The notes beneath the pieces are model-generated. The model did no database searches. It was not told where the DNA came from and was given only the letters and a program-made list of their open reading frames with translations. The translations under genes were made by a program, and so were the position numbers. From contig NZ_WXUB01000001.1 in assembly GCF_011799805.1 (NCBI RefSeq), forward strand, positions 682,001 through 746,000: a stretch of 64,000 nt of DNA. Reading direction: 5' to 3'. Origin of the DNA: Maribellus sediminis (lineage in GTDB: Bacteria > Bacteroidota > Bacteroidia > Bacteroidales > Prolixibacteraceae). Positions 5,699-44,789 of the stretch are shown here, piece after piece. Every line of letters begins with the position of its first letter. Position 1 is the stretch's first letter.

Positions 5699-5866
5699 AA
5701 TTTCTAATTTTTATCAATCTAACAGTTGTTACGGGTTTTGGTTGAAAATAATTTTAAAAAGATACTGAAAAAATGGACCGTTCCAGCTTATACGGTTTTA
5801 TTCTCAGGGCTGAACGGAATATTATTATCTTTAATCGACAAATTGTACCAACTTATCTGAACCAAC

Positions 5867-7273: not shown

Positions 7274-7283
7274 AAATCAAAAT

Positions 7284-8273: not shown

Positions 8274-8293
8274 TGCTGCGTTTAAAATGCAGG

Positions 8294-8369
8294 ATGAAAA
8301 AAACAACTGGAGGTTTTACTGATCAACTATTTCAGGGAGTGTTATGACGCTTTCCCGAAAGGTAGGATC
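8294..8369 (+). other. Out-of-frame N-terminus of the following gene at an A7 tract
   Basis: An ATG at 8294 is followed by seven A residues. In the genomic frame it stops after 17 codons (tga at 8345). Removing one A joins it to the downstream frame and gives a natural-looking N-terminus (MKKQLEVLLINYFRECY...) continuing into the 8370 gene. This is either a one-base sequencing or assembly error, a real frameshift, or slippage control. Confidence 0.55.
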
Positions 8370-9002: not shown

Positions 9003-9081
9003 GAAATTTTTCCGATATGAGTTGATCCTAGAACAAAGAGGGCAGTAAAAACGTCATATTTGTAATCTTAAAAAAATAATC

Positions 9082-9894: not shown

Positions 9895-9925
9895 AGCGGC
9901 AATTTTCAACTTGAAATTTTAATCG

Positions 9926-12483: not shown

Positions 12484-13848
12484 TCACAATTTAACTTTGA
12501 ATACCCAGGCAAATTCACCCGGATTGTCGGCTGGAGAGATTTGTGGCACCACTATTTTTGTGGAGTTCCCCGATGTTTTAAAGGAAATTTTGCCACTATA
12601 TCCCAACATGCTGACTGCTGTTGCTTTCACGCCTTTCAAATTAATGGGCTCAGTTGGAAATTTGGTACAGTGGACATACAAATAATCGTCGTTCCGGGTG
12701 AAAAAGATATTTTCAGTTTGATTGTTTTTGGCGCCGTCCCATTTCCTGGTTTCGTAAATAGCTTCGCCATTAACAGCCAGCCAAGACCCGATATCTGCCA
12801 GTCGCTGTTGCTGAATTACCGGGATTCTACCGTCGGAAGTTGGCCCGACATCAAGCAGCAGGTTACCGCCTCCGGCTACTTTTTCGATAAGCATATCAAT
12901 CAGCGCATCCGAGCTTTGGTAATTATCGAGGTCTTCAATTTGATTATAACCGAACGAAGTTCCAATTCCGCGACATTCTTCCCATGCTTTTTCCATTTCT
13001 CCACCGGCTCCATCGTGCACCAGATCATATTCGGTAGTGAAAAATCCTCCGTGTTTTCCACGTGTCTTGGAGCCCCAGCGATCGTTAACACAAACGCGTT
13101 CTTTCACCGGAGATTCGTTATACAACCAGGCCAGGAACTCGGTACTTTTCCATTTTTCACTTGGATGATCCCATTCTCCATCGGTCCACAAAATATCGGG
13201 TTCGTAGCGCGTTACCAGGTCCTTCATTTGCGGGATCATGTGATCGTCAACATATTTTTCGAGGTTATTTTTATACAGAGGGTTGTACCATTCGTACAAA
13301 GAATAGTAGAATCCCATGTGCAGACCGGCATCTTTTACGGCAGTGCTGAGGTCGCCGCAAAGGTCGCGGTGTGGTCCAATGTCAACACTGTTCCAGTTCC
13401 AGCTTTGTTCGCTGGGCCACAAGGTAAATCCTTCGTGATGTTTCGAAGTAAGCACCACGTATTTGGCACCGGCATCTTTAAAAATGCTGGCCCATTGTGC
13501 CGGATCCCAATGTTGCGCCTTAAACATGGGCGCAAAATCCTGGTATTTAAAATCAGCTCCGTACATTTTATCATGGTAGTCGCGGAACAAACGGCCGGCT
13601 TTACTTTCTTCGTTGATCCGCCACCAGTACCATTCAGCATATTTTGCATAAATTCCAATGTCGGCATCGGCAGGTGCCCAGGCCGGAACCGAGTATAGTC
13701 CCCAATGTATAAAAATTCCAAACTTGGCATCTTCGAACCACTGTGGGATAGGCCTGCTATCGATGGATTCCCAATCGCTTTTGTATTGTTGTGCCTGTAC
13801 GAATGGAGCACTGATAAATAAAAGGAGTAATAAAATTAGACTTTTCAT
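12484..13848 (-). CDS. Secreted alpha-L-fucosidase (GH29)
   Basis: Exo-acting retaining fucosidase. A signal peptide (MKSLILLLLLFISAPFVQA) precedes the GH29 barrel. Family hallmarks are PQWFEDAKFGIFIHWGLYSVPAW near residues 34-56, YVVLTSKHHEGFTLW near 130, and ILWTDGEW with the nucleophile Asp223. The C-terminal domain ends at residue 454. It begins 224 bp from the divergent hybrid system A gene; the tandem GGGA element at 13952-13993 lies in that shared spacer, so the fucosidase-hexokinase pair may be a target of that regulator. Specificity (alpha-1,2/3/4/6 linkages, GH29-A or GH29-B) cannot be decided by eye. Confidence 0.95.
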   Translation of the reverse strand: MKSLILLLLLFISAPFVQAQQYKSDWESIDSRPIPQWFEDAKFGIFIHWGLYSVPAWAPADADIGIYAKYAEWYWWRINEESKAGRLFRDYHDKMYGADFKYQDFAPMFKAQHWDPAQWASIFKDAGAKYVVLTSKHHEGFTLWPSEQSWNWNSVDIGPHRDLCGDLSTAVKDAGLHMGFYYSLYEWYNPLYKNNLEKYVDDHMIPQMKDLVTRYEPDILWTDGEWDHPSEKWKSTEFLAWLYNESPVKERVCVNDRWGSKTRGKHGGFFTTEYDLVHDGAGGEMEKAWEECRGIGTSFGYNQIEDLDNYQSSDALIDMLIEKVAGGGNLLLDVGPTSDGRIPVIQQQRLADIGSWLAVNGEAIYETRKWDGAKNNQTENIFFTRNDDYLYVHCTKFPTEPINLKGVKATAVSMLGYSGKISFKTSGNSTKIVVPQISPADNPGEFAWVFKVKL

Positions 13849-13951: not shown

Positions 13952-14016
13952 GGGAAAAAGCGGCAACTATTTGGGAAGATCGGGAAAGTCGGTGTTCGCA
14001 AAACTTCAAACTTTTG
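13952..14016 (+). promoter_or_regulatory. Tandem GGGA operator and -7-like element before hybrid system A
   Basis: Half-sites begin with GGGA at 13952 and 13973, 21 bp apart, each with an AA-containing block at offset 12 (CAACT, AAAGT). A third GGGA starts at 13982. Exactly 36 bp after the second half-site start lies AACTTTTG (14009-14016), one base from TAnnTTTG. The same geometry recurs at 19275, 21814 and 22523. It lies in the spacer shared with the divergent fucosidase. Confidence 0.65.
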
Positions 14017-14071
14017 CAGTAAAATAACGTATTCCGCAGTATGCGGAATCATCCAATAAAAACCAAAAGTC

Positions 14072-16249
14072 ATGGAATCTGTTCCCCTTTTTTTCGATCG
14101 CCTGGACAAGAGGCTAGAACGTAAAATCGATACAAAAAATCTGACACCCAGAGAAGAACTGGTCCAAAAGTACATGAGGATGCAGGGCATTTTTGCGCTA
14201 AGCGGATTATCGCTGATGTTGATGGTTGCCTGGATTCTGGGAGCCAAAATGATGGCCGAATTCAGTTTGGTTTATATTCCTTTTATGATGGTTGCGGGTA
14301 ACATCATGAAGCGCTCAAAACAGATGCTTAAAATCATCTTCCTTTTCAAAATTTCGATGATCATCATTTCGTCAGTTTATATCGTTCGCATGGGAGGGAT
14401 ATTGACCAGTGGAGGTCTTTTTTTACTTACAATTCAGGCAGTAACCAGTTCGGTAATCATGCGTGATTTTCGTAGGATTTTTGCGGTAGCATTTTCCTTT
14501 GTTATTGCCGTAACGCTTTTGGTGGTGTTAGAGCCTTACTTCCCCACGCGTTATGCGCTCAATCAACACCAAAATACCATTTTCCTTGGATTCAATCTGG
14601 TCTTGATCACTGGCTATATTTTCTTTTTTAGCTTGTATGCCGTCAATTTATATTCGAAAATGGAGCAGCGTGAAACACAACGGCAAAAAGAATTAAATGA
14701 CGCCAAAACCAGGTTATACACCAACATTACACACGAATTTCGCACACCGCTCACCGTTATCCTGGGGTTGGCTGATGCTGTGAAATACGGACAGCAGAAC
14801 CACATTGAAGCGAAAATGGATACGATTATCCGAAACGGTAAAAACCTGTTGCAATTGGTCGATCAGATGCTTGATTTAAGCAAGTTGGAGTCGGGCAAAA
14901 TTTCGATAAACAGGATTCACGCCAATATTATCCCATTTCTGAAATACATTTTTCAATTGCAGGAATTTTATGCCGAGGGTAAGCGCATCAATATGTCATT
15001 TTTCTCCGAGAGCCAGTCATATGAGCTTGATTTCGATCCTGAAAAAACGGCGGCGGTTGTAAGTAACCTGTTGAATAATGCGATCAAATTCACAAACGAG
15101 GGAGGGAATGTTCAACTGAAGGTCTTCAGGAAGTCAGATTCACTTTATATTGAAGTGCGCGATACCGGAATTGGTATCCCCGGCGAAAAAATGGAACAGA
15201 TATTTGATCGCTTTTACCAGGTAGATGGAAAGAACACCCGTAAAGAAGGAGGCGCCGGAATTGGTCTTTCATTAACGCGCGAACTGGTGAACCTGATGGA
15301 CGGAACCATTAATGTGAAAAGTGTGCCTGAGGAGGAAACTGTTTTTACCGTACAACTTCCGATAAGGCATGAACACGAAAAGGCGGAAATTGAAAAAAAT
15401 CCTGCATTTGAAGCCGAATTGGAAGCAAAGCAGCTTACCAATAGTGTTTCAGAAACTCAAAACGGCTCGCCAAAACATTTGCTGATTGTTGAGGACAACG
15501 CTGATGTTATTGCCTATATGAAAGCGTGTTACGAGACGCATTTTAAAATTACGGTGGCTCAGGATGGATTGGAGGGACATAAACGTGCCCTGGAAGATGT
15601 TCCTGATATCATTATCAGTGATGTAATGATGCCGGGCATGGATGGTTTCGAACTCTGCAAAAAACTGAAAGACGACTACCGCACCAGCCATATACCGATT
15701 ATTCTACTTACCGCAAAAGCTGATATTCCTTCGCGAATTGAAGGCCTGGAACAAGGTGCCGATGCGTTTGTGGTAAAACCCTTTAACCAGCAAGAGTTAA
15801 TGGTTCGTATGCAGAATTTGCTGGATTTGCGAAAACGGCTGTTTGAATGCTACAAAAATGGTAATGGATCCGAATGCTCGTCCGACCCGGTCATTCAAAA
15901 AGAAGATGTTTTTTTTAAGCGGCTGAACGAATCCATTAACAACAACCTTTGCGATGAGCATTACGATATTCATAAACTGTGCGAAGACATGGCCATGAGC
16001 AAGTCGCAATTGTACCGAAAGTTCCGAGCTCTGACCAACGATTCCGCAGCCCGCTACATTCGCCGCCAACGTATGAAACGCGCCAAAGAACTCCTGCAAA
16101 CCACCGACATGAACATCACCGAAGTAGGTTACGAGGTGGGGATGAAAAGCCTTTCCACTTTCAGTCAGCTGTTCAAGGATGAATTTGGCGAAAGTCCGAG
16201 GGAGTTTCAAAATCACCTGCAGGTTAATGGGAACGGGAAGGCACATTGA
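14072..16249 (+). CDS. Hybrid two-component system A (HK-receiver-AraC HTH)
   Basis: Single-chain sensor and transcription factor of 725 residues. Several hydrophobic helices (about residues 40-195) form an integral membrane sensor; there is no large periplasmic two-component Y_Y_Y propeller as in classical carbohydrate HTCS. A dimerisation/phosphoacceptor domain follows with His221 (ITHEFRTPL), then an HATPase domain (NNAIKF, DTGIGIP, GAGIGLS), a receiver with Asp517 (SDVMMPGMDGF), and an AraC-type HTH (MAMSKSQLYRKF, EVGYEVGMKSLSTFS). The membrane part holds a GGILTSGG loop shared in form with the other three systems. Its HTH is almost identical to that of system C, which implies a common operator. 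It is the first of three tandem hybrid systems and has no lipoprotein gene of its own next to it. Confidence 0.93.
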   Translation: MESVPLFFDRLDKRLERKIDTKNLTPREELVQKYMRMQGIFALSGLSLMLMVAWILGAKMMAEFSLVYIPFMMVAGNIMKRSKQMLKIIFLFKISMIIISSVYIVRMGGILTSGGLFLLTIQAVTSSVIMRDFRRIFAVAFSFVIAVTLLVVLEPYFPTRYALNQHQNTIFLGFNLVLITGYIFFFSLYAVNLYSKMEQRETQRQKELNDAKTRLYTNITHEFRTPLTVILGLADAVKYGQQNHIEAKMDTIIRNGKNLLQLVDQMLDLSKLESGKISINRIHANIIPFLKYIFQLQEFYAEGKRINMSFFSESQSYELDFDPEKTAAVVSNLLNNAIKFTNEGGNVQLKVFRKSDSLYIEVRDTGIGIPGEKMEQIFDRFYQVDGKNTRKEGGAGIGLSLTRELVNLMDGTINVKSVPEEETVFTVQLPIRHEHEKAEIEKNPAFEAELEAKQLTNSVSETQNGSPKHLLIVEDNADVIAYMKACYETHFKITVAQDGLEGHKRALEDVPDIIISDVMMPGMDGFELCKKLKDDYRTSHIPIILLTAKADIPSRIEGLEQGADAFVVKPFNQQELMVRMQNLLDLRKRLFECYKNGNGSECSSDPVIQKEDVFFKRLNESINNNLCDEHYDIHKLCEDMAMSKSQLYRKFRALTNDSAARYIRRQRMKRAKELLQTTDMNITEVGYEVGMKSLSTFSQLFKDEFGESPREFQNHLQVNGNGKAH

Positions 16250-16406
16250 ACCGACCCAAAGTCAAAAATGGTATAGAAATTTAGGTGACAATTATACCGT
16301 CCGAATAAGAAAACAGAGGAATATTGGTTATTAATCTGGCTCGTATTTCGTAACTTAGATAGAATAAAAGCTTTGTAAACGAATGAGTTAACTAATCGTA
16401 TTCCAA

Positions 16407-18560
16407 ATGTCATTCCGGTTTAATGATTATATTACCTGGCTTGAGATTTTTTTTCTGGGAACGTATGAAGATGACAAACACAGAAAAAGAAAATCAGTTC
16501 TGTTATTTGCTTCTTTCGTGTTTATGATCTACACCCTCATTGTAGCCATTTCAGTTTTGATATTAGGTCAGCTTCTATTTTTTTATTACGGGATGTCGAT
16601 GCTAATGACCTATTTCCTGTTTTTCAGTTTTGTCAAAATAACAAAAAATATCGACGTCGTTTTTTTTATAGAACTGATAGTAATTATTCTTCATACTGCT
16701 GTATTTATAGTGCTTCTGGGCGGCATTCCTTATTCCGGCGGGATAGTACTTAGCGGATTGGCTGCTACAATTTTTTCTATTCATTTCGAACGCATAAAAT
16801 GGTCAATAATCCTTTTTCTCCTTTATTCCTTATCCGTAATCGTTGCCGGTATTTTGCAGCCCTTTTTAAAAATTGAACCGCAAATGCCATCCAATATAAA
16901 CCTTTTATTGTTTATCGTATTTTCAGTTTTTCTTTGTGGTTTAACGACCCTGTTTGTTGCCGACGTTGTAAAAGAAAGAATTAGGATACAGGAGTATATG
17001 GTAAAAAAACTACAGGAACTCGATAGGGCAAAAACAAACCTGTATACCAATATTACCCATGAATTTCGCACTCCAATTACCGTTATATTGGGAATAACAG
17101 AAATTTTAAACGATCACTTAAATAGCAAACAAAAAGAAGATCTTTCCTTAATTTCAAGAAATGGTGAGAAACTACTGAATCTGGTCAATCAATTGCTTGA
17201 CCTGGCAAAACTGGACTCCGGAACAATTGAACTCAATAAAATCAACGGAAACATAATCGAATCGGTTAATTATGTGATCGCTTCATTTGAAAGTATCTCA
17301 CAACAAAAAAATACACGTATTCATAAGTTGTTCGATGTTTCTGAGATAGTCATGGATTTCGATCCTGAAAAGGTGGAATCAATTCTAACAAACCTGCTTG
17401 ACAATGCATTAAAAAACACCGAAAACGGAGATGTTTATATTCTTATTTCGCAGGAAAAGGAAAGCAATGTTCTAATTATTAAGATAAAAGATACAGGTTC
17501 CGGTATTCCTTCTGAACTTGCAAACAGAATATTTGATCGTTTCTTTCAGGTTGAAAAATCCGTATCGGGATTAACAGGAGGAACAGGAATTGGGCTGGCC
17601 ATTGTAAAAGAATATATACATTTAATGGGGGGCGATATTTTTGTAAAAAGCGAAATAAACAAGGGTACGGAATTTACAATTCAAATCCCGATAACTAATG
17701 AAGCATCCCCGCTTAAGGTTCCCCTCAAAAAAGCAGTTACCAGTTATCGGAACATCGATGAAAATTCAACTGAATCGAAAAGCAAAAAAGAACTGCCGGT
17801 TTTGCTGATTATTGAAGACAACCTGGATTTAGTACAATTCCTGTTAAAATTGCTAAGCGATGAATTTGAAATATTAGTCGCAGGTAACGGAAAAGAAGGC
17901 ATCGACAAAGCGATCGAACACATTCCTGATATTATTATTTCCGATGTGATGATGCCTGAAATGAATGGCTTTGAAGTCACCGATCGGTTAAAAAATGATT
18001 TGAGAACAAGCCATATTCCGGTGCTTCTTTTAACCGCAAAAGCCGACGAGCAATCTAAACTGTCGGGATTGTCAAAAGGTGCCGATGCTTATATGGTGAA
18101 ACCGTTTAATAAAAAGGAATTACGAGTAAGACTTGAAAACCTGGTTGATGTCCGGCGGAAACTAAAGACGAGGTATGAATATTATATTCCCGAATTAATT
18201 GAAAGCGGAAAGGGAACTTCGCTTGACGAGATTTTTTTGAAGAAGATAAAAGATGATTTGGAAAAGAATTATTCGGATGAAAACTACAACACAAAACAAC
18301 TCTGCGAGAATATTGGCGTCAGCCGCGTGCAACTCTTCAGGAAGTTAAAAGCGCTAACCGGAATAGTACCTTCGTTGATGATACGAGCCTACCGACTTGA
18401 AAAATCACGGAACTTAATCGTCTCTACCGATCTTCAAATAGCAGAAATAGCATACAGTTGCGGCTTTGGCAATGCTGCTTACTTCACCCAGATCTTTAGT
18501 GAAGTTTATGGAATTTTGCCTACTCAGATGCGCAATTCAAAACAGGATTCGGTAACCTAA
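16407..18560 (+). CDS. Hybrid two-component system B (HK-receiver-AraC HTH)
   Basis: Second membrane-embedded hybrid regulator, 717 residues. Hydrophobic helices span about residues 28-195 with a GGIPYSGG loop. The kinase core carries His218 (ITHEFRTPITVILG), then DNALKN, DTGSGIP and GTGIGLA ATP-lid motifs. The receiver has Asp513 (ISDVMMPEMNGF). The C-terminal AraC HTH reads IGVSRVQLFRKL and IAYSCGFGNAAYFTQIF, clearly different from systems A and C. Base composition looks more AT-rich and codon choice plainer than in neighbours, by eye only. The last codons overlap the first of two tandem 14-bp repeats (18553-18586) that precede the lipoprotein A gene, its probable target. Confidence 0.93.
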   Translation: MSFRFNDYITWLEIFFLGTYEDDKHRKRKSVLLFASFVFMIYTLIVAISVLILGQLLFFYYGMSMLMTYFLFFSFVKITKNIDVVFFIELIVIILHTAVFIVLLGGIPYSGGIVLSGLAATIFSIHFERIKWSIILFLLYSLSVIVAGILQPFLKIEPQMPSNINLLLFIVFSVFLCGLTTLFVADVVKERIRIQEYMVKKLQELDRAKTNLYTNITHEFRTPITVILGITEILNDHLNSKQKEDLSLISRNGEKLLNLVNQLLDLAKLDSGTIELNKINGNIIESVNYVIASFESISQQKNTRIHKLFDVSEIVMDFDPEKVESILTNLLDNALKNTENGDVYILISQEKESNVLIIKIKDTGSGIPSELANRIFDRFFQVEKSVSGLTGGTGIGLAIVKEYIHLMGGDIFVKSEINKGTEFTIQIPITNEASPLKVPLKKAVTSYRNIDENSTESKSKKELPVLLIIEDNLDLVQFLLKLLSDEFEILVAGNGKEGIDKAIEHIPDIIISDVMMPEMNGFEVTDRLKNDLRTSHIPVLLLTAKADEQSKLSGLSKGADAYMVKPFNKKELRVRLENLVDVRRKLKTRYEYYIPELIESGKGTSLDEIFLKKIKDDLEKNYSDENYNTKQLCENIGVSRVQLFRKLKALTGIVPSLMIRAYRLEKSRNLIVSTDLQIAEIAYSCGFGNAAYFTQIFSEVYGILPTQMRNSKQDSVT

Positions 18561-18586
18561 ACAACAAAAATGTAACCCAGACAACA
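18553..18586 (+). promoter_or_regulatory. Tandem TAACC-type direct repeat before lipoprotein A
   Basis: TAACCTAAACAACA (18553-18566) and TAACCCAGACAACA (18573-18586) are direct repeats 20 bp apart, matching at 12 of 14 positions. The first overlaps the stop codon of hybrid system B. The form resembles tandem AraC-type half-sites. No clear -7 element is found at a matching distance. Confidence 0.5.
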
Positions 18587-18678
18587 TTCAATTCAACACC
18601 ATTTGAAACCTTACATAAACTAAGCATGGTAATAAAAAGCTAATTTGATTATCACAATTAACCTTAAAAATGATAATC

Positions 18679-19245
18679 ATGAAACGAGTATTTTTTTTAC
18701 TGATCGGAATCCTGATTCTTTGCGTAGCATGTCAGGATGATTTTGTTGAACCTGAAAACGCACCCGTGACCAAGAGTGCGAAGTACGAAAGAACTAAAAC
18801 TTTTGAACTTCGGGGGCATGTCAGTTCCATTCCAGATTTCAACGGTCCTTTTGTTTCCTGCTTGCCCGAAGGAAGCGGTTTGGTACTGGCCGAAACCGGG
18901 TGGGTTAGTGGCCAGGTAAATATCCTGGGACAATTAATGCCTGAAAAATGCACCTATGAAGGGGTAAGCTGTGAAATGGATTTGACCGACGGAGTACCAA
19001 CGGTGTTTATAACGGCCAATGTTGAACTTGTACGAAACAACGGAGACAAAATTATTCTTGTGAGCCACATGGTACTGGATCCCCTGATCAACGAAATCAG
19101 CGGATACAATGAATATATCGGTGGCACCGGAAGATTTGAAGGAGTTACTGGCGAATGCAACATCATTAACGGTGTTCTTGATCCTGATACCGGAATCGCC
19201 AGCTGGGAAGAAGTGGGAGAAATAACCCTGATTCTTAAAGATTGA
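18679..19245 (+). CDS. Small lipoprotein A with GTGRF motif, HTCS-associated
   Basis: Exported lipoprotein of 188 residues with no assigned function. The start at 18679 (MKRVFFLLIGILILCVAC) is preferred over an ATG three codons upstream because paralogue B begins identically. The lipobox is LCVAC and QDDF follows. The mature part is predicted beta-rich, has several extra cysteines, and ends with YIGGTGRFEGVTGE and a final EITLILKD strand. The GTGRFxGxxG motif resembles the closing strands of allene-oxide-cyclase/dirigent-like beta barrels, a fold guess only. Paralogues are at 21917 and 41938. Each lies beside a hybrid two-component gene, suggesting a ligand-binding or signal-relay partner, or a regulated output. 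Confidence 0.85.
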   Translation: MKRVFFLLIGILILCVACQDDFVEPENAPVTKSAKYERTKTFELRGHVSSIPDFNGPFVSCLPEGSGLVLAETGWVSGQVNILGQLMPEKCTYEGVSCEMDLTDGVPTVFITANVELVRNNGDKIILVSHMVLDPLINEISGYNEYIGGTGRFEGVTGECNIINGVLDPDTGIASWEEVGEITLILKD

Positions 19246-19274
19246 AAGCTCTTGAGTTGATGGATTTTTCTGCT

Positions 19275-19339
19275 GGGACATATCATCAAAACTTCGGGAA
19301 AATCCATCAACTCGGTTCGCAGTTCTAAAGCTAACTTGG
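19275..19339 (+). promoter_or_regulatory. Tandem GGGA operator and -7-like element before hybrid system C
   Basis: Half-sites start at 19275 (GGGACATATCATCAA) and 19296 (GGGAAAATCCATCAACT), 21 bp apart, both with CAA at offset 12. TAACTTGG at 19332-19339 begins 36 bp after the second half-site start and differs from TAnnTTTG at one base. Confidence 0.68.
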
Positions 19340-19452
19340 GTTCACCAAGAGTTTAAGAGATTTGTTTGCATCCAAAACTTGAAAAAATTCGTAAATCAGA
19401 AAGTTATCTTATTAAACTATGCAGTTTTTCAACTAATCTTAAAACAAACAGA

Positions 19453-21627
19453 ATGACTTCTGTCCCAAAACATCAGAATTTATGGGCTCGATTGAACTAC
19501 CTTCTTTTCGATAGATTTGATGTGTCGGAGCGTGAAATGCGGAAATTTCATCTTGCAATGCAACTGGGATTTATTGGAGGAATGCTGATTTGCATTGCCG
19601 AGTCGCTTGTCGGTAATATTCCTGTTCTGGGATATCTCGGATTAACCGGAATTGCTTTTGCTTTGGTGCTGCTGATAGTTTTCTTTTTTGCGAAAAAAGT
19701 GAAGTATCTGATACTCACTAAAGAGCTCGGATTACTGCTTATCGTTTTCTATTTCACTTATCACACAGGAGGCCTTTTAACTTGTGGGGGAATTGTTCTG
19801 ATCGGGATTGTACCTGTGCTTGTTTCTCTAAGTTTCAAAAGCTCCCGACAGATCATACTGGTTTTTTCGCTTTATTTTATTTCGGTGGTTTATCTGGCTA
19901 TTGCCGATAAGAATCTACCGGGAAAGGATTTGATTCCACCGGAATGGAACCTGATCGTTTTTGCAACAACTTTATTGGCATGTACTCTGGTTTTCTTTAT
20001 TTCGGCACTGTTGGCACAGCGAATTTTCACCAACCTGGAACGCCGGGAAACCGAACATCAGAAAGAGATCAACGATGCAAAAACCAGGTTGTATACCAAC
20101 ATTACACATGAATTCCGCACTCCGCTAACGGTTATTTTGGGGCTGGCCGATTCGGCTAAAAACAATGGTCATTCAAATGTTTCCTGTAAAATGGATACCA
20201 TCATAAAAAACGGGAAAAGCCTCCTTCAGCTGGTCGATCAGATGCTGGATTTAAGTAAACTTGAATCGGGTCGGATGACGGTGAATAAAATAGGCGCAAA
20301 CATTATTCCATTTCTGAAATATGTTTTTCAGTTGCAGGAATTTTATGCAGAGGAGAAAAATATCTCCATGCGTTTTTCTTCCGAAAGCCAGTCGTATGAA
20401 ATTGAATTTGATCCTGAAAAACTGGCATCAATTGTTTCCAACTTGCTAAGCAATGCCATAAAATTTACGCCCGAGGGTGGGCAGATTATTATGACGGTAT
20501 ATCGACGTAATGAAAATATCTGTTTTGAAGTTAAAGATAACGGTGTTGGAATTCCACCGGAAAAGCAGAATACCATTTTCGACCGCTTTTACCAGGTAGA
20601 AAGCAAGAGCACCCGCAAAGAAGGTGGGGCAGGAATTGGCCTGGCAATAACGCGCGAACTCGTGCACCTATTGGAGGGTACAGTTCGAGTTAGAAGCAAT
20701 TCCGGAGTAGGCACGGTTTTTACGGTGTGTTTGCCTTATGTACCTGCAAGCGAAAATTCAGTGGTAATGACTGATGCTGATGAAGAGACCGAGTCGTGGG
20801 AAGAAAGCGCTAATGGAGACAAATTGTTGCAAGCTGGTTTCAATGGCCATTATCGACTGTTGATTATCGAAGACAATCCGGATGTGGTCGGTTACCTTAA
20901 AGCCTGTTATCAAAATCATTTCTCTATTCATGCCGCAAAAGATGGAATAGATGGATTTGAGCTGGCTGTGGAAGAGATTCCCGACATCATAATCAGCGAT
21001 GTGATGATGCCCGGAATGGATGGTTTTGAACTGTGCAAGAAGTTGAAAGACGATTACCGCACCAGCCACATTCCGATAATACTACTGACTGCCAAAGCCG
21101 ATATCCCATCCCGAATTGAAGGACTGGAAACCGGTGCCGATGCATACATTGTAAAACCATTTAACCAACGCGAATTACTGGTGCGTATGCAAAAATTGCT
21201 CGAATTGCGCCGAAAACTTTTTCAAAGGTACAACAACGGAAACAGCCTTGAATTTTCCGACAATCCGGTGGTGCGGAAAGAAGATCAATTCTTTCAAAAG
21301 CTTAATGAGGTTATCCTTAAAAATCTGGGAGATGAGTTCTTTACGATCCAGGTGCTTTGCAATGAAATGGCCATGAGCAAATCGCAGCTGTACCGTAAAT
21401 TCAGTGCGCTTACCAATATTTCAGCGGCAAAATACATTCGAACACTGCGCATGAAAAGAGCAAAAGAACTGCTCCAGACCACTTCGATGAATATCACTGA
21501 AGTGGGCTACGAAGTGGGTATGAAAAGTGTATCGGTTTTTAGTAAAATATTTAAAGAAGAGTTTGGCTACAGTCCTACCGATTTTGTGCATCAGAGTTTG
21601 AAAACCAATGAGGTAATTTCGAACTGA
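19453..21627 (+). CDS. Hybrid two-component system C (HK-receiver-AraC HTH), paralogue of A
   Basis: Third hybrid regulator. The ATG at 19453 (MTSVPKHQNLW) is preferred over a TTG at 19366 because the extra segment has no family resemblance and would cover the promoter-like element at 19332. The resulting chain is 724 residues. Membrane helices with a GGLLTCGG loop precede the kinase core with His219 (ITHEFRTPLTVILGLAD), a receiver with Asp516, and an AraC HTH (MAMSKSQLYRKF, EVGYEVGMKSVSVFS). From about residue 195 to the end it is very similar to system A, including FLKYVFQLQEFYAE and RTSHIPIILLTAKADIPSR, so A and C arose by duplication. The membrane sensor parts differ much more than the output parts, consistent with different inputs and shared targets. 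Confidence 0.93.
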   Translation: MTSVPKHQNLWARLNYLLFDRFDVSEREMRKFHLAMQLGFIGGMLICIAESLVGNIPVLGYLGLTGIAFALVLLIVFFFAKKVKYLILTKELGLLLIVFYFTYHTGGLLTCGGIVLIGIVPVLVSLSFKSSRQIILVFSLYFISVVYLAIADKNLPGKDLIPPEWNLIVFATTLLACTLVFFISALLAQRIFTNLERRETEHQKEINDAKTRLYTNITHEFRTPLTVILGLADSAKNNGHSNVSCKMDTIIKNGKSLLQLVDQMLDLSKLESGRMTVNKIGANIIPFLKYVFQLQEFYAEEKNISMRFSSESQSYEIEFDPEKLASIVSNLLSNAIKFTPEGGQIIMTVYRRNENICFEVKDNGVGIPPEKQNTIFDRFYQVESKSTRKEGGAGIGLAITRELVHLLEGTVRVRSNSGVGTVFTVCLPYVPASENSVVMTDADEETESWEESANGDKLLQAGFNGHYRLLIIEDNPDVVGYLKACYQNHFSIHAAKDGIDGFELAVEEIPDIIISDVMMPGMDGFELCKKLKDDYRTSHIPIILLTAKADIPSRIEGLETGADAYIVKPFNQRELLVRMQKLLELRRKLFQRYNNGNSLEFSDNPVVRKEDQFFQKLNEVILKNLGDEFFTIQVLCNEMAMSKSQLYRKFSALTNISAAKYIRTLRMKRAKELLQTTSMNITEVGYEVGMKSVSVFSKIFKEEFGYSPTDFVHQSLKTNEVISN

Positions 21628-21690
21628 ATAGCATTCATTTCTCCCAAAACATTTATTCTCCTGGTCTCGTGTCCATTCACTTTTAATTAT

Positions 21691-21774
21691 TCGTCATGCT
21701 GAATTCATTTCAGCATCTCTGCATTAAAACAACAGGTTCTGAAATATCCCGATAGTAGTCGGGACGGAATGACA
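21691..21774. repeat. REP-like intergenic palindromic element
   Basis: Two hairpins lie in tandem: ATGCTGAA/TTCAGCAT (21696-21716) and TCCCGA/TCGGGA (21747-21764). They are bracketed by CGTCAT at the left and GAATGACA at the right. The GAATGACAG end is shared with the larger element at 24935-25117. Such elements are recurrent intergenic repeats in Bacteroidota; copy number cannot be judged from this window. Confidence 0.6.
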
Positions 21775-21813
21775 GTGCTCTATTATAGGTCCGAAGTACT
21801 GCTCTTTCAGTTT

Positions 21814-21878
21814 GGGATGAATAGACAAAACTCAGGGAAAATCCGACAATCCCAAATCGTGTGTTCATCCTAATTTTG
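21814..21878 (+). promoter_or_regulatory. Tandem GGGA operator and promoter before lipoprotein B
   Basis: Half-sites start at 21814 (GGGATGAATAGACAA) and 21835 (GGGAAAATCCGACAA), 21 bp apart. TAATTTTG at 21871-21878, a perfect TAnnTTTG, begins 36 bp after the second half-site start. The second half-site would cover the -33 region, as expected for an activator that contacts polymerase. Confidence 0.72.
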
Positions 21879-21916
21879 AGGATAATAATCAATGTTTAAC
21901 CTTAAATCGAGAAATT

Positions 21917-22480
21917 ATGAAACGAGTATTTTTTTTATTGATTGGAATCCTGATCGTCGCAGTTGCCTGTCAGGATGATTTTGATGAACCTGAACATTCC
22001 CTGACAACAAAAAGTGCGAAGTATGAGAAAATTAAGACTTTTCAGGTAAAAGGCTGGACCCAAATTATTCCTGATGAAACAGCTCCCAGGTTTCAATGCA
22101 TGCCTGTGGAAGCCGGGGTGGATATGTGTTCTTATGGTTGGTTAGACGGACATATGAACATTTCTGGCAAGATCATTCAGGAAGAAAGTACCTACACAAA
22201 ACTGTATTGCGAGTTGATGCTTACTCCTGCAGGACCGGTTATCTATAATGAAGTAAGTGCTGATGTCAAATTCGCCTGCGGCGAGAGCGTTTCTGCATTG
22301 GGATTCGTGTCGATCAATACGGTAACAGGAGAGGTAACAGGGCATACTGATTATGTTGCGGGAACAGGTCGATTTGAAGGAATTACCGGATCAACAAAAG
22401 TTGTGAATGGCAAAGTACTGCCCGACGGAGGATTGTTCTGGGATACAGAAGGTGCGATAACACTCGTCCTAAAAGATTGA
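21917..22480 (+). CDS. Small lipoprotein B with GTGRF motif, HTCS-associated
   Basis: Paralogue of lipoprotein A, 187 residues. The signal and first mature residues are almost the same (MKRVFFLLIGILI, lipobox AVAC, QDDF, then TTKSAKYEKIKTF). The central part has diverged, but G-x-M-N-I-S-G, several cysteines and the end YVAGTGRFEGITGSTKVVNG with a final AITLVLKD strand are kept. It is expected to face the periplasm or outer surface; function is unknown. It follows hybrid system C by 289 bp, a gap holding a REP-like element and the best-formed tandem GGGA promoter. Strong N-terminal conservation with a divergent middle suggests changed ligand or partner specificity after duplication. Confidence 0.87.
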   Translation: MKRVFFLLIGILIVAVACQDDFDEPEHSLTTKSAKYEKIKTFQVKGWTQIIPDETAPRFQCMPVEAGVDMCSYGWLDGHMNISGKIIQEESTYTKLYCELMLTPAGPVIYNEVSADVKFACGESVSALGFVSINTVTGEVTGHTDYVAGTGRFEGITGSTKVVNGKVLPDGGLFWDTEGAITLVLKD

Positions 22481-22502
22481 CTTCGTATTTAATGAGCGTT
22501 CC

Positions 22503-22587
22503 GGGAAATCTTTGCAAGTATTGGGAAGAGTCCGTAACTCCCTGGGAAAAGCGAAAAAACCGAACAGCCGGCATTGGTATAACTTCG
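22503..22587 (+). promoter_or_regulatory. Triple GGGA operator and -7-like element before the esterase
   Basis: Three half-sites start with GGGA at 22503, 22523 and 22544 (spacing 20 and 21 bp), with CAAGT, TAACT and AAAAC at offset 12. TAACTTCG at 22580-22587 begins 36 bp after the third and differs from TAnnTTTG at one base. The start codon is 37 bp beyond the octamer start. Confidence 0.68.
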
Positions 22588-22616: not shown

Positions 22617-23792
22617 ATGAAAACCAAAATTTTACTGGCAGTGCTGGCTTCGGTATTTTTCATGGCCGCCTGCGAAAAAGAGTATTTAACAGATGAAAAT
22701 GATCCGACTCCCACCCCGAAAGCTGCGGAGATCGGTGAAGGAACAATTGTTTCAAACATCGTGCATTTCTCGTCACTCGAGGGAAATATTCTGGATGATC
22801 CTGCCACCCGGAAAGTCAATGTTTATTTGCCCAAAAGTTATTTTACCTGCCCCGAAAAACATTTTCCGGTGATTTATTTTCTTCACGGTACACCCGCCTG
22901 GGGCGATATGTTGCTGGACCCGCTTCCGTTTGAATATTTTTTCCAGGCTGCAGGTTTGCAAGCACCTGTCGATTTCCCCGAAGAAGGGTTTTTGGCCTGG
23001 CTTAACAATCTGATTGATAACGAAGGCATGAAGGAGGTGATCATCGTAATGCCCGATGCGAGGGCAAAGTACGGACCGAGCATGTATGTGAATTCTTCCA
23101 CCCAGGGAAATTATGAGGATTATATTGTGGATGAACTGGTTTCATACATCGATCAAAATTACCGGACCATCGCACATTTTAACTGGCGGGCCATCAGCGG
23201 ACACTGTGCAGGTGCTTATGGAGCGTTGAACGCTGCAATGAAACACCCAAAGGTTTTTCGTTATGTAGGTGCCTTGTCACCACCACATTTTCCTGCTCCG
23301 TTATTGCAGTACCTCACCGGTTTTATTGCGCTCGAAGATCAGATGTGGGGGGTGGAAGGACCGCTTCCATACGATCCGCAGGCTCCTTTTAAATTTGCCA
23401 ACAATGGCGCTTATAATTTGTCGCAGGCCTGGCTGCCCAATCCCGAAAATCCACCCTATTACTGCGATCTTCCTCTTGATTACGTTGATGGCAACTGGGT
23501 GGACAATCCTGAAAATCTGGCGAAATGGGATTCCCAAAGTCTGATGGTTCTGGCAGAACAATATCGAACCGAATTAAAGCAGTTGAAAACCGTTTATTTC
23601 GATTGCGGGACGAATGACGATCTTGGGATGTATCAATCGAATGTAATGTTTCACGAGCAACTGGAAGCGATGCATATTAAACATCAATTCGAGACATACT
23701 CCAATCCCGGAACACACATTAGTAACCTCTACGAAAGACTTGGAATGGTTTGGACAATGTTATCGAATGATTTTCCCGAATACGAAGATTAG
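22617..23792 (+). CDS. Lipoprotein esterase-fold protein with Cys in the nucleophile position
   Basis: Alpha/beta hydrolase of the esterase D/feruloyl-esterase-like family, 391 residues. The N-terminal signal MKTKILLAVLASVFFMAAC carries a lipobox. The oxyanion-loop motif YFLHGTPAWGD lies near residues 85-96. The nucleophile elbow reads GHCAG with Cys197 where GxSxG would place Ser. The probable acid is in DCGTNDDL (near 328) and the His in NPGTHISN (near 366), so a Cys-Asp-His triad is possible. Known alpha/beta hydrolases with Cys exist (dienelactone hydrolase), but that is a different subfamily. It is preceded by a triple GGGA operator and is the likely enzymatic output of hybrid systems A/C. 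Substrate unknown. Confidence 0.85.
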   Translation: MKTKILLAVLASVFFMAACEKEYLTDENDPTPTPKAAEIGEGTIVSNIVHFSSLEGNILDDPATRKVNVYLPKSYFTCPEKHFPVIYFLHGTPAWGDMLLDPLPFEYFFQAAGLQAPVDFPEEGFLAWLNNLIDNEGMKEVIIVMPDARAKYGPSMYVNSSTQGNYEDYIVDELVSYIDQNYRTIAHFNWRAISGHCAGAYGALNAAMKHPKVFRYVGALSPPHFPAPLLQYLTGFIALEDQMWGVEGPLPYDPQAPFKFANNGAYNLSQAWLPNPENPPYYCDLPLDYVDGNWVDNPENLAKWDSQSLMVLAEQYRTELKQLKTVYFDCGTNDDLGMYQSNVMFHEQLEAMHIKHQFETYSNPGTHISNLYERLGMVWTMLSNDFPEYED

Positions 23793-23832: not shown

Positions 23833-23866
23833 AAAACAGGAAGGCTGACGGCTTTCCTGTTTTTTT
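23833..23866. terminator. Strong bidirectional terminator
   Basis: A 13-bp stem (23833-23845 with 23851-23863, one G-T pair) and a 5-base loop are followed by a T-run; on the other strand the same hairpin also ends in T residues. It separates the esterase (+) from the AraC regulator (-), whose stop codon starts inside the T-run. Confidence 0.85.
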
Positions 23867-24746
23867 AGGCTACCACATTCTGAAGTTCCTGTTTTCTGCG
23901 AAACTCATTCGGCGTACAACCGTTCATCTCTTTAAATTTCCGGTTAAAATTCGAAAGGTTGCCAAAACCCACCCGGTAACAAATTTCCGAAATACTAACT
24001 TCCTCCTGTTGCAGCAATTTGCAAGCCTGTCCAATGCGGTATTCGGTAAGGAAATTCACATAGGTTTTTCGTGTGCGTGTTTTAAAGTAGCGGCAAAACG
24101 AGTTCACTGTCATATTCGAAACACCGGCAACTTCCTCCAGGCTTATCGGCCGGTGAAATTCATTCAGCGTAAACCGAAATACAGCGTCCAGTCGTTTTTC
24201 ATCGGTTTCATTCAACTTGTTGTAAGTGCCTTCAGTAGTTAACACTTTATCGTTTCCCGATTCCGAAAGCCGGGTAAGCAGATCGAGTAGTAAAGTTAAG
24301 CGCCTGATCTCTTTTTCTTCGGAAATGGCCTCGATAATGCCGGCTTCTTCTCCATGAAGAACAGCAGGGTAGTGGATACCGCGATCAGCTTTTCGAATGT
24401 ATTCTTTGAGCGACTGTGTTTCAGGCAGGTTCCAGAAGGATGCACCAAAAACTTCGGTTTCAAAATAAATAGAAATAGCATGTGCAAATAAATCAGGATC
24501 GTTGTGATAGTATTCCGGATCGTTTCGTAAAGCATGCGGCAGACCAGATCCCAGTACAAAAATATCACCGGGCTGAAAAGCTATAATCTGATTGCCAACA
24601 ATGATATTACCTGTACTTTTCTTGATCAGGGTGATTTGAAACTCAACATGCTGGTGCAATATATCGTAAAGATGGGGGAGCTTTTCGTTCTGCACCCAAA
24701 CCGACTGGTCAACAGGTTTTGCGATTTTAAATGGAAGAATTTTCAT
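23865..24746 (-). CDS. AraC family transcriptional regulator, likely hydroxyproline operon control
   Basis: A 293-residue regulator with an N-terminal cupin-like sensor (PGDIFVLGSGLPHAL near residues 60-75) and a C-terminal double HTH. The HTH has ISLEEVAGVSNMTVNSFCRYFK and VSISEICYRVGFGNLSNFNRKFK followed by GCTPNEFRR. Such cupin-AraC proteins usually respond to a small metabolite. It is divergent from the hydroxyproline operon at 25185 with a 438-bp spacer between them, so regulating that operon is the natural guess. The ligand could be hydroxyproline or a pathway intermediate. Confidence 0.9.
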   Translation of the reverse strand: MKILPFKIAKPVDQSVWVQNEKLPHLYDILHQHVEFQITLIKKSTGNIIVGNQIIAFQPGDIFVLGSGLPHALRNDPEYYHNDPDLFAHAISIYFETEVFGASFWNLPETQSLKEYIRKADRGIHYPAVLHGEEAGIIEAISEEKEIRRLTLLLDLLTRLSESGNDKVLTTEGTYNKLNETDEKRLDAVFRFTLNEFHRPISLEEVAGVSNMTVNSFCRYFKTRTRKTYVNFLTEYRIGQACKLLQQEEVSISEICYRVGFGNLSNFNRKFKEMNGCTPNEFRRKQELQNVVA

Positions 24747-24934: not shown

Positions 24935-25117
24935 AAGATTCTTTCGCTTCTCCGTCGACTGACGGATGCGCTCAGAATGACAGGTCGTTACGTTATGGCG
25001 GGCTGTTGGGAGGAGTGGTTTGGCCACGAATGTTCGTGGCCAAACCACTCCTCCCAACAGCACAAATCTTCAATAAGCCTGTCATTCCGAATCCGCCAAA
25101 TGGCGGTGAGGAATCTT
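24935..25117. repeat. Nested palindromic intergenic element (MITE/REP-like)
   Basis: The element fills most of the 438-bp gap between the AraC gene and the hydroxyproline operon. From outside in it has AAGATTC (24935-24941) against GAATCTT (25111-25117), small hairpins CCGTC/GACGG (24952-24965) and CCGCC/GGCGG (25093-25106), GAATGACAGG (24975-24984) against CCTGTCATTC (25078-25087), and a central 28-bp perfect palindrome. No coding sequence is present. The rest of the gap shows only the -7-like octamer at 24866. Confidence 0.75.
25003..25060. repeat. Perfect 28-bp inverted repeat with 2-bp loop
   Basis: The arm at 25003-25030 (begins CTGTTGGGAGG, ends GCCACGAA) is an exact reverse complement of 25033-25060; only TG separates them. 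It forms the core of the larger nested element. There is no T-run, so it is not a standard terminator. It could fold as a very stable RNA hairpin or cruciform. Confidence 0.92.
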
Positions 25118-41937: not shown

Positions 41938-42477
41938 TTAATATTTACCACTGCCAACATTCGATATCAATCCTTCGCAATGCATATACATTGTTGTTAT
42001 GGCCATCGGATCGTCGGCATAACCGCTGGCTTCTACATAACCTACAGCATTTTTAAATCTGCCGGTTCCGTTTTCAATTTCGATATGTGCAATTAATTCG
42101 TTGGCCGGAATATTAAATGTTCCGGACAGATTGTAGTACATCAAATCGCCGTTTGCAGCACATGTAGCTCCTGACATTTCCCAACTAATGGTCCATGTAG
42201 CTTCATCAAGCGTTAAAGAAGTAGTATTGAAAATACTTTTTTCTGCAATTAACTGCCCCAGGTGCGTCATGTTTCCGGAAAGAATTCCCTGAACAGGCAC
42301 ACCATCCTGATAGGCGGTAACATGTGATTGAATTTCTCCTTTAATTGGGACCATCTTTAGCTCAGCAGATTTCAGATCACTTTCGGATTCCGATTCGGGG
42401 AACAGCGAATCGTTTACGTCGCAGCCAGTAAATACAAGGCTCAGACTTAGCAGTAGAAGGAATAATAGATGTTTCAT
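41938..42477 (-). CDS. Small lipoprotein D with GTGRF motif, HTCS-associated
   Basis: Third member of the lipoprotein family, 179 residues, lipobox LVFTGC. It is more divergent than A and B but keeps the layout: SAELKMVPIKGEI after the linker, then GNMTHLGQLIAEKSIF, a CAANGDLMYY strand and IENGTGRFKNAVGYVEASG near the C-terminus. It lies 117 bp downstream of, and co-directional with, hybrid system D. The gap holds tandem GTTTTGGTA repeats 21 bp apart. The final segment lacks the xxTLxLKD ending of A and B. Confidence 0.83.
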   Translation of the reverse strand: MKHLLFLLLLSLSLVFTGCDVNDSLFPESESESDLKSAELKMVPIKGEIQSHVTAYQDGVPVQGILSGNMTHLGQLIAEKSIFNTTSLTLDEATWTISWEMSGATCAANGDLMYYNLSGTFNIPANELIAHIEIENGTGRFKNAVGYVEASGYADDPMAITTMYMHCEGLISNVGSGKY

Positions 42478-42521: not shown

Positions 42522-42578
42522 TAAAGGTATGCGAAGAATATGTGCCGAGTTTTGGTACTTATCTCAAATGTTTTGGTA
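42522..42578 (-). promoter_or_regulatory. Tandem TACCAAAAC repeat and -7-like element before lipoprotein D
   Basis: On the minus strand TACCAAAAC occurs twice, 21 bp apart (plus-strand GTTTTGGTA at 42549-42557 and 42570-42578). TACCTTTA (42522-42529), one base from TAnnTTTG, starts 28 bp after the proximal repeat. The arrangement parallels the GGGA operators and suits system D, whose gene lies immediately upstream. Confidence 0.6.
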
Positions 42579-42593
42579 ATTGTTGCAAAGTTC

Positions 42594-44789
42594 CTATTCA
42601 ATATCTTTTGTTACTTCACTTGGAGGAATCCCAAATTCTTCGTGAAAAATGGCACTGAAATGGGAGAGGTTTTTAAAACCCGTAGCAAATGCAGCTTCGG
42701 TAACGTTTAGTTCTTTGCTTTCCAAAAAGTGTTTTGCTTTCTGAAGTCGGTATGAACGAAGGTATTTTCCAATTGATTTATTGGTAAGCGCTTTAAATTT
42801 CCGGTACAATTGAGGTCGGCTCATGTTAAATGCCATGCAAATTTCAGTAACTCCAAAATCTTCAGCATCCAAATTCGTCTCAAGAAGCGTATTCAGTTTT
42901 CCCATAAATTTAATTTCCTGCCGGTATTCCGATTTCCCGCTTGAACCTGGCTGTAGAATTCCGAGTTTTAACTGCATCTTATTACGGGCTTCAAGCAGGT
43001 TCCGCAGTTTCAGTAGCAACTCCTGTTTGTTAAATGGTTTTACCAGGTAATGATCAGCACCAATTTCAAGCCCGGATATTTGTGAGTCGAAATCGCCACG
43101 CGCAGTCAGTACTACCACTGGAATGTGATCCGTTCGCACGTCGTTTCTCAAATTCCCGATCATTTCAAAGCCATCCATTTCAGGCATCATTACATCCGTC
43201 AGAATTACATCAGGTATGTGATTCCGGGCTTTCTCCAATCCTTCCTTCCCGTTTAGTGCGAGATCGAGTTGGTAGTTGTTTTCTAAAACTGAAACCAGAT
43301 ATTCGAGTACATCTTCATTGTCCTCAACAATCAGAAGCAGCGGTTTCTCAGGCTGATAGTTTTGAAATTTTTCTGTAGATGTTCTGTGAGACCTTAAGAT
43401 AGTCGAATTCTCAAGACCTTTTATGCCCGAAATACCATCATCGCTTGCTTCGGGTGCTGAATTTTTAATCGGAAGATTAACCGAGAAAACCGAGCCCTTT
43501 CCGGGAGTACTGTCAACCTTGATTTTTCCATTCATCAATTCCACCAGTTCGTAAGTTAAAGCCAGACCAAGCCCGGTTCCGGATGTTTGAGATTTGTGAT
43601 CTTTAACCTGGTAAAAACGATCAAAAATATGTGGGATTTCTTCAGCAGGTATTCCTTTCCCGGTATCAGAAACACGGATTTGTACCTGCTGATTTTCGTC
43701 GTTTTCAAATAACGAAACGGTAACTAAAATATTCCCACCAGCTTGCGTGAACTTGATGGCATTCGAAAGCAGGTTGGCCAATACTTCCATTAGTTTTTCA
43801 GGATCGTAGTCCGTAAATATCGGATCGTTAGGAAGCTTGATCGATAGGTGAATCTTAAATGTTTGGGCCAGGCTTTCGAACTGGGCAGTAATGTATTGAA
43901 TGTAACGTCCAATATTTCCATGAACTTCATTTAGGCGGATTCCTTCGGCCTCGATTTTCGAGATATCGAGCATTTGTTTTACCAAACGAAGCAAGATTTC
44001 ACTTTGTGTTTTGATTTTTATCGAATCGCTTTTACTTTGGTTTTCCGATCTGTCTTCAATTTGTTCTGCAATTCCCCTGATAATGGTTAGGGGAGTCCTG
44101 AATTCGTGTGATACATTTGTGTAGAGAAGTGTTTTTGCTTCATCGAGTTTTCGGAGTTTTTCAGCTTCTGCTTTTTCGTAACGACTTTTGTCCTTCATAA
44201 AAAGTATAACCAGGAACAGGATACAGGCATTAATCCATACCGCCAAAAAAACAAAAGCTTTGGCGTTGATCTCAGCCGTTATATAATCAGGTGTTTGCAG
44301 GTAAGGCTGTGCTATTCCCAAAGCAACAATTGTAGAACAATACAAGGTGAACATCGCAATGGTCCACCGAAGATTGCCGACAAGCACTGAGCCCATGGCG
44401 GCATTAATTCCAACAAAAACAAAGCCCAGAGAGCTTGATAAACCTCCTGTTTGAAGCATAGCAAAGAATACCATAAGAGTAAAAATGGCAAATATGATAT
44501 TGCATACCAGGTCGAAACGCAAAACACGAGGGTAAAGCAGAAATAGAAAGGTGTAACCCATAATGAACATTACTCCAACCCAGATGAGGGGCCAAAGCTT
44601 CAGAATAAAAAGAAAGTAAATAATGGAAGCGATAACACCCAGTAGGGTTGAGAACATCCAGATCAAGGCCCACCTTTTCCGAAGTTGTTCTTCAGGGCTT
44701 AGCCTTGGATCGGCCACGTAGCTGTCAATCCCCAGGATCAGACGATCTTTAATACGAGTAACTTTCGATATGGATGTGTTGTTATCCAT
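42594..44789 (-). CDS. Hybrid two-component system D (HK-receiver-AraC HTH)
   Basis: Fourth membrane-embedded hybrid regulator, 731 residues. The N-terminal helices (about residues 40-205) include a GGLSSSLGFVFVGI loop like the GGxxxSGG loops of A, B and C. The kinase has His228 (VSHEFRTPLTIIRG), then SNAIKF, DTGKGIP and GTGLGLA. The receiver has Asp532 (LTDVMMPEMDGF). The HTH reads FNMSRPQLYRKF and AAFATGFKNLSHFSAIF. It is about 20-26 kb from the other three but has the same architecture and the same type of lipoprotein neighbour. Probably regulates lipoprotein D and the NTF2-like gene. Confidence 0.93.
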   Translation of the reverse strand: MDNNTSISKVTRIKDRLILGIDSYVADPRLSPEEQLRKRWALIWMFSTLLGVIASIIYFLFILKLWPLIWVGVMFIMGYTFLFLLYPRVLRFDLVCNIIFAIFTLMVFFAMLQTGGLSSSLGFVFVGINAAMGSVLVGNLRWTIAMFTLYCSTIVALGIAQPYLQTPDYITAEINAKAFVFLAVWINACILFLVILFMKDKSRYEKAEAEKLRKLDEAKTLLYTNVSHEFRTPLTIIRGIAEQIEDRSENQSKSDSIKIKTQSEILLRLVKQMLDISKIEAEGIRLNEVHGNIGRYIQYITAQFESLAQTFKIHLSIKLPNDPIFTDYDPEKLMEVLANLLSNAIKFTQAGGNILVTVSLFENDENQQVQIRVSDTGKGIPAEEIPHIFDRFYQVKDHKSQTSGTGLGLALTYELVELMNGKIKVDSTPGKGSVFSVNLPIKNSAPEASDDGISGIKGLENSTILRSHRTSTEKFQNYQPEKPLLLIVEDNEDVLEYLVSVLENNYQLDLALNGKEGLEKARNHIPDVILTDVMMPEMDGFEMIGNLRNDVRTDHIPVVVLTARGDFDSQISGLEIGADHYLVKPFNKQELLLKLRNLLEARNKMQLKLGILQPGSSGKSEYRQEIKFMGKLNTLLETNLDAEDFGVTEICMAFNMSRPQLYRKFKALTNKSIGKYLRSYRLQKAKHFLESKELNVTEAAFATGFKNLSHFSAIFHEEFGIPPSEVTKDIE

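Follow-up and report, generated by a model that had tools for sequence, protein, structure and literature searches.

The window analysed here, a stretch of 64,000 nucleotides from Maribellus sediminis (contig NZ_WXUB01000001.1, positions 682,001 to 746,000), contains a block of genes for three hybrid two-component systems (HTCS A, B and C), two lipoproteins and a putative esterase. Very probably, the AraC-type domains of HTCS A and HTCS C use four elements in this block as tandem operators, which act as activator sites, as far as can be judged from sequence. These elements stand upstream of HTCS A, HTCS C, lipoprotein B and the esterase (Table 1) and comprise nine half-sites led by GGGA, all nine of which carry AA at offsets 13-14. 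Neighbouring half-sites are 21 bp apart, except for one 20 bp step inside the esterase triple, and in 4/4 cases an octamer starts 36 bp past the start of the last half-site (+36). A preliminary description of this DNA had listed these half-sites, the AA block and the octamers at +36, and direct reading places all of them where it did. GGGA is absent from either strand upstream of HTCS B (16250-16406) and of lipoprotein A (18561-18669). Repeat-like stretches, GTCATGCTGAA and CGGAATGACA, lie directly upstream of the lipoprotein B operator (~21690-21780).

Table 1. Operators, octamers and genes in the window. Ranks are genome-wide, by the profile built from related species only.
Feature	Position	Strand	Detail	Basis
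Tandem operator of HTCS A	13952..13987	+	half-sites 13952 + 13973, 21 bp apart	pattern match; rank 2
-7-like octamer	14009..14016	+	AACTTTTG, +36 from last half-site start	direct reading
HTCS A	14072..16249	+	725 aa: hydrophobic N-terminus, HisKA, HATPase, receiver, AraC-type HTH	Pfam, hydropathy
HTCS B	16407..18560	+	717 aa; lacks an upstream GGGA operator (serves as internal negative control)	Pfam
Lipoprotein A	18670..19245	+	191 aa; lacks an upstream GGGA operator	
Tandem operator of HTCS C	19275..19310	+	half-sites 19275 + 19296	pattern match; rank 1
-7-like octamer	19332..19339	+	TAACTTGG at +36	direct reading
HTCS C	19453..21627	+	724 aa, 54% identity to A	Pfam
Tandem operator of lipoprotein B	21814..21849	+	half-sites 21814 + 21835; counterparts in L041, L042	rank 4
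-7 octamer	21871..21878	+	TAATTTTG at +36	direct reading
Lipoprotein B	21917..22480	+	187 aa, dirigent/allene-oxide-cyclase-like barrel by predicted fold	
Triple operator of esterase	22503..22558	+	half-sites 22503, 22523, 22544; spacing 20 and 21	rank 3
-7-like octamer	22580..22587	+	TAACTTCG at +36	direct reading
Putative esterase	22617..23792	+	391 aa, PF00756	Pfam
Lipoprotein behind HTCS4-side operator	41938..42477	-	179 aa, GTGRF signature	
Octamer of HTCS4-side operator	42522..42529	-	TACCTTTA at +36	
Tandem operator beside HTCS4	42551..42586	-	GCAACAATTACCAAA / GAGATAAGTACCAAA, 21 bp	
HTCS4	42594..44789	-	731 aa, layout as A and C	

The 18 sites found in the window and its relatives fall into 10 sequence clusters. 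With one representative of each, AnnTT stands in the +36 frame in 10/10 clusters and TAnnTT in 8/10 (other offsets average 0.33 and 0.03). In 5000 shuffles of the same base composition, AnnTT reached a count of at most 5, whatever the offset. Four of the ten clusters contain window sites that suggested the rule; the six that come from relatives' own sites have AnnTT at +36 in 6/6 and TAnnTT in 5/6. The 21-base stretch from half-site to octamer is for the most part unconserved, and the half-sites and AnnTT are conserved. In the part of PMC7366714 consulted, Bacteroides sigma-ABfr promoters have the consensus TAnnTTTG at -7 and TTTG near -33. In the expected place of the -33 box, with a start 22-26 bp ahead of the octamer, a TTG is found at 0/18 sites; 5/18 have a TTG somewhere within +5 to +29. 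From this layout we infer an activator-dependent promoter. Relative to the predicted start sites the proximal half-site lies at the -35/-33 region, at a fixed distance to the -7 box (+36, 10/10 clusters), as at class II sites of AraC-type proteins. The view of the preliminary description, tandem AraC-type half-sites two helical turns apart with -7-like octamers at a fixed distance, is thereby supported.

Elsewhere in the genome the elements are rare. The strict pattern GGGA-N9-AA-N5,6-GGGA-N9-AA has six matches in 5,595,594 bp (6 forward, 0 reverse), five of which are the four window sites, the esterase triple being counted twice; the backward pattern, used as a control, has one. The sixth match (C6:386945), with 20 bp spacing, outside the listed reading frames, near a tRNA and with no +36 octamer, was taken as chance. 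In a profile built from ten related-species sites only, with the window left out, the window sites take ranks 1-4 in the 5.6 Mb genome (E = 2.4e-5, 4.0e-5, 0.0026 and 0.0054; fifth, 0.105). Scores by this profile cover 150 of 7588 first-look candidates; weak sites may therefore have escaped, and among those 150 no further site of comparable score was found. Model scanning of the window's own genome also gave eighteen weaker matches; the four that were opened all lie inside reading frames and were taken as chance. With the window sites at ranks 1-4 and the next at E = 0.105, the set is therefore a local mini-regulon and not a genome-wide one. Such a scan had been proposed beforehand; it did not find the motif equally frequent elsewhere, and of the regulon then suggested the local set of four promoters stands, with no sign of a genome-wide extension.

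HisKA, HATPase_c, receiver and AraC-type helix-turn-helix (HTH) domains are joined in one chain in A, B and C (Pfam), as they are in HTCS4, a further system in the window, and the first ~200 residues of all four are mostly hydrophobic. A SHIP motif is found in the translations of A, B and C; in the text of PMC11253607, as far as consulted, the S/CHIP motif in the receiver domain is an HTCS regulator trait. Overall identity is 54% between A and C and 36% between A and B. The HTH domains of A and C are 71% identical; next by score in the genome is that of HTCS4 (40%), and no other exceeds 44%. A and C are thus the likely, predicted binders, as the preliminary description had proposed. The first recognition helix, SKSQLYRKF, is common to A, C and all ten orthologs; it differs in B, which has no operator, and both points count for A and C. 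In the N-terminal ~200 residues of A and C no Pfam family is found at E ≤ 0.001, and no sensor domain is recognised. HTCSs of polysaccharide utilization loci (PULs) typically have a large periplasmic sensor domain, which is not required; A and C differ from them in having none. For the signal, a membrane-soluble ligand is our guess.

Orthologs of A/C (at least 54% identity) are present in 9/37 genus genomes, the window's own included, and ten loci with such orthologs were fetched from eight relatives. All ten have the strict tandem pattern; the gene behind it is the esterase in seven, a 411-aa protein in two (in L048 it carries propeller repeats plus a secretion tail) and HTCS C in one. The third esterase half-site, 41 bp upstream, is present in L043 and L044 too. 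A weight matrix (threshold 11.5 bits) found four sites outside its training set, two upstream of lipoprotein B (L041, L042) and two upstream of A (L043, L044), scoring 24.5-31 bits; AnnTT stands at +36 in 4/4 of these and TAnnTT in 2/4. The same scan also returned four strays (14.4 in L041; 14.2, 12.7 and 11.5 in L043), a match of 12.2 bits that overlaps the esterase triple, and nothing in 110 kb of other loci. Across the genus, a model match at E<1e-5 is seen in 7/9 carriers and one at E<1e-3 in 0/28 genomes without A/C; the model was trained on the carriers' own sites, and of these two figures the absence in non-carriers is the independent one. Autoregulation, also claimed at the outset, agrees with the sites upstream of A (window, L043, L044) and of C (window, L042).

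Several observations weigh against this interpretation. Perfect TAnnTTTG is confined to the octamer at 21871, the other three in the window having one mismatch each (imperfect in 3/4), and the octamer upstream of A in L043 and L044, GAACTTTA, has two. The geometry shuffles preserve single-base composition only, and the ten ortholog sites are partly near-identical, so they are not independent. When the L043 esterase site is excluded from training it scores 15.3 bits, near the level of the two highest strays (14.4 and 14.2), and in carriers G004 and G032 the best model E is just 0.049 and 0.050. In L045-L050 the matrix scan finds no site upstream of the HTCS gene itself, and autoregulation is therefore not universal.

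Some relatives depart from the common arrangement. The ortholog of HTCS A in L050 (8761-10916) is split into two frames (127 and 572 aa), after which come an operator and an esterase frame. In L040 (D. mangrovi, 5853-10813) a relative of lipoprotein A, 70% identical, lies between two 680-682 aa proteins locally similar to A/C, not beside HTCS B. G042 holds a shorter, interrupted relative. The short form, resembling a six-transmembrane protein, was not found outside the genus among 395 class genomes sampled (E ≤ 1e-135); three other genomes in that sample matched with the C-terminal part of long proteins only.

On the proposed mechanism, each 15 bp half-site (GGGAAaa....CAA or AAA) would fit one HTH pair, and two regulator molecules would bind side by side, 21 bp apart, on the same DNA face. 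The downstream half-site would occupy the place of the -33 box, with the TAnnTTTG-like -7 box starting 36 bp past its beginning, and the two bound molecules would bring in RNA polymerase carrying the main sigma factor, in the manner of a class II activator. Both regulators would activate the genes that encode them, and in the merged cluster of the window the outputs would be the dirigent-like lipoprotein, from a C-type operator, and the esterase, from an A-type operator with three half-sites.

Whether A and C serve one regulon or two is a separate matter. The preliminary description suggested a shared, partly autoregulated regulon; the autoregulation is supported, and the sharing is one candidate reading: 9/10 ortholog loci keep to one pairing, A beside the esterase (seven loci) or C beside lipoprotein B (two). 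The A and C modules lie apart even in genomes that hold both (G005, G024). At offset 12 of the last half-site, C is found in 6/6 C-type sites and A in 8/8 esterase sites, and the second recognition helix is unlike between the two proteins (SLSTFSQLF in A, SVSVFSKIF in C). Two sister regulons, in which A would read A-type sites (esterase, A) and C would read C-type sites (lipoprotein B, C) with little cross-talk, appear to fit at least as well as one shared regulon, and we lean towards this refinement. Against it, A's own promoters have A, C and C at offset 12, the eight esterase sites amount to two sequence clusters, and one base may not insulate; L048 is mixed, with an HTCS nearest to C (53%) beside the 411-aa protein and the esterase, and A at offset 12. 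Cross-regulation between A and C is possible. The pairing and the split at offset 12 thus make the window block look as if two modules had merged in it.

That the sites belong to another AraC-type regulator or to HTCS B, with A and C mere neighbours, is improbable. The genome does hold 16 HTH stretches matching at E ≤ 1e-15 (A and C included), and a stand-alone AraC protein is encoded at 23865-24746 of the window. The operator, however, adjoins A/C orthologs in 10/10 loci, even where A and C are unlinked (G005, G024), and genomes without A/C give no model match at E<1e-3. As for B, nothing closer to it than 34% identity is found in the ten ortholog loci, and it has a different tandem repeat of its own beside it. 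This is a 20-bp direct repeat, GTAACCTAAACAACA / GTAACCCAGACAACA, in the gap between HTCS B and lipoprotein A (18552-18586), 13/15 identical (GTAACC...ACAACA) and possibly B's own operator.

Repression by A and C instead of activation would be compatible with the sequence, and some AraC proteins act as repressors. It is nevertheless unlikely: the operator lies upstream of the -7 box and not over it, there is no TTG at -33, and HTCS proteins are known activators in Bacteroides. Inheritance of one duplicated upstream region, its copies alike without function, is very unlikely, for although tandem gene duplication is visible (A/C, lipoproteins A/B), the 21-base spacer is mostly unconserved while half-sites and AnnTT are kept, the sites recur across separate loci and genomes, and B and lipoprotein A, in the same block, lack them.

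Lipoproteins A and B are 43% identical, and neither has a Pfam family at E ≤ 1. A GTG[RK]F signature is common to eight aligned HTCS- or regulator-linked lipoproteins. The predicted model of lipoprotein B made from these eight sequences has a pLDDT of 75 (five sequences had yielded a poor lipoprotein model, pLDDT 48), and its nearest structural matches are dirigent proteins and further barrels of the allene-oxide-cyclase type (best 6ooc, E 4.5e-5, TM 0.46). Weak sequence hints point the same way: allene oxide cyclase at E 0.26 in 1/8 lipoproteins, and pyocyanin demethylase at E 0.37. A scan of the nine proteins between 11159 and 24746 shows no susC/susD pair. An alpha-L-fucosidase gene (12484-13848, minus strand) is divergent from HTCS A, and its strand is free of operators in the matrix scan. 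Further along, at 25022-25041, a perfect palindrome, GGCCACGAATGTTCGTGGCC, lies inside a longer inverted repeat.

The geometry, first noticed in this block, is not confined to it. HTCS4 has a tandem operator with a different half-site at its side (Table 1), and the GAGACAA-N5-AAA half-site occurs in five relatives' loci, in a scan selected for the +36 octamer. Searched for alone with at most one mismatch in 37 genomes, the GAGACAA-type pair gives 7 matches in 6 genomes (0 in the control), with TAnnTT at +36 in 7/7. Two of the seven were previously unseen: one in L138, between an HTCS4-like gene and a GTGRF lipoprotein, the other in L135, before a 276-aa protein. The L135 site (G000:C5:534002-534037) is a distant one of the HTCS4 type in the window's own genome, with TAACTTAT at +36, and may be an unlinked target.

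In an open profile over 292 upstream regions of the loci collected first (lags 17-25), the maximum falls at lag 21 and offset 36, with a count of 13 regions; other lags reach at most 2 at any offset, and 300 shuffles give at most 2 at offset 36 and 4 at any offset. Among these regions are those of the loci from which the rule was drawn, of L120 with its susC-like promoter, and of L131, whose AraC-type neighbours are not HTCSs by the motif tested. In 16 newly fetched HTCS loci (135 upstream regions) a 21-bp repeat is found in 22 regions, as against 5 to 14 for other lags and a shuffle mean of 6.2 (maximum 13). Offset 36 is again the highest, with 5, next to 4 each for offsets 35, 37 and 38, and in 500 shuffles a count of 5 is never attained, whatever the offset. 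Among the five regions at offset 36, L151 and L152 resemble each other and suit +35 just as well; L142 and L147 are A/T-rich, fit many registers and may be chance. A first, small sample for generality had 15 perfect octamers from six sources. No +36 octamer is present upstream of the large genes at L122 13558 and L119 13793, and the HTCS loci L127 and L130 have no 21-bp repeat of at least 11 matches with an octamer. The repeat beside HTCS B is not claimed for the rule, its octamer being ambiguous (ACCTTACA at +36, AACCTT one base earlier). In L120, a tandem TGGGAAAA with lag 21 stands upstream of 9794, before a susC-like gene next to a PUL-type HTCS, with TAGGTTTTG 33 bp after GGGA. The evidence for a 21/+36 rule across HTCSs, all of it at the level of sequence, is suggestive and not settled.

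HTCSs are major nutrient sensors of Bacteroidota. We propose tentatively, as quite possible, that their promoters across the phylum follow a fixed ruler whatever the half-site, a pair 21 bp apart and TAnnTT 36 bp past the second, from which targets and starts of many orphan HTCSs could be read, those of a PUL-free class included. A sequence-independent ruler of this kind, if true, would allow operators to be found without a prior motif, and the PUL-free class would consist of short membrane-embedded sensors with dirigent/allene-oxide-cyclase-like lipoproteins. The present case suggests that HTCS modules also exist apart from polysaccharide loci, their outputs being dirigent-like barrel lipoproteins and an esterase, and the four promoters are likely the switchboard of two sister membrane sensors.

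At E. coli araI1-I2, a class II site of AraC, two direct half-sites lie 21 bp apart with the downstream one at the -35 region. The operators described here likewise have two direct half-sites at 21 bp, the downstream one in the place of the -35 region; unlike E. coli AraC, a soluble arabinose regulator, the predicted regulators are membrane-bound hybrid kinases, and the sigma factor is that of Bacteroidota. The -7 octamer is shared with Bacteroides sigma-ABfr promoters as described in the part of PMC7366714 consulted, from which the present promoters differ in that the -33 place lacks TTG and is occupied by the operator. For B. thetaiotaomicron, the portion of Ravcheev 2013 examined (PMC3878776) predicts direct repeats averaging 21 bp for 16 of 36 HTCSs, reads them as two monomers on one DNA face, and proposes that the close pair BT4111/BT4124 shares sites; its motif search was confined to HTCSs beside susC/susD. 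The term 'transcription start' is absent from its main text, and no distance to a -7 box was met in the text examined; nor was a statement of the +36 distance found in the literature searched, and PMC12125979 and PMC11501099, as far as consulted, have no bearing on it. Because that study predicted 21-bp repeats for HTCSs, the operator type is already known. Like its set, the proteins here are histidine kinase-receiver-AraC fusions with direct repeats of ~21 bp; unlike it, they have short sensors without a recognised sensor domain, targets that are not of the PUL type, and a fixed +36. The present analysis adds the PUL-free modules with the conserved sites in them, together with the constant spacing to the -7 box.

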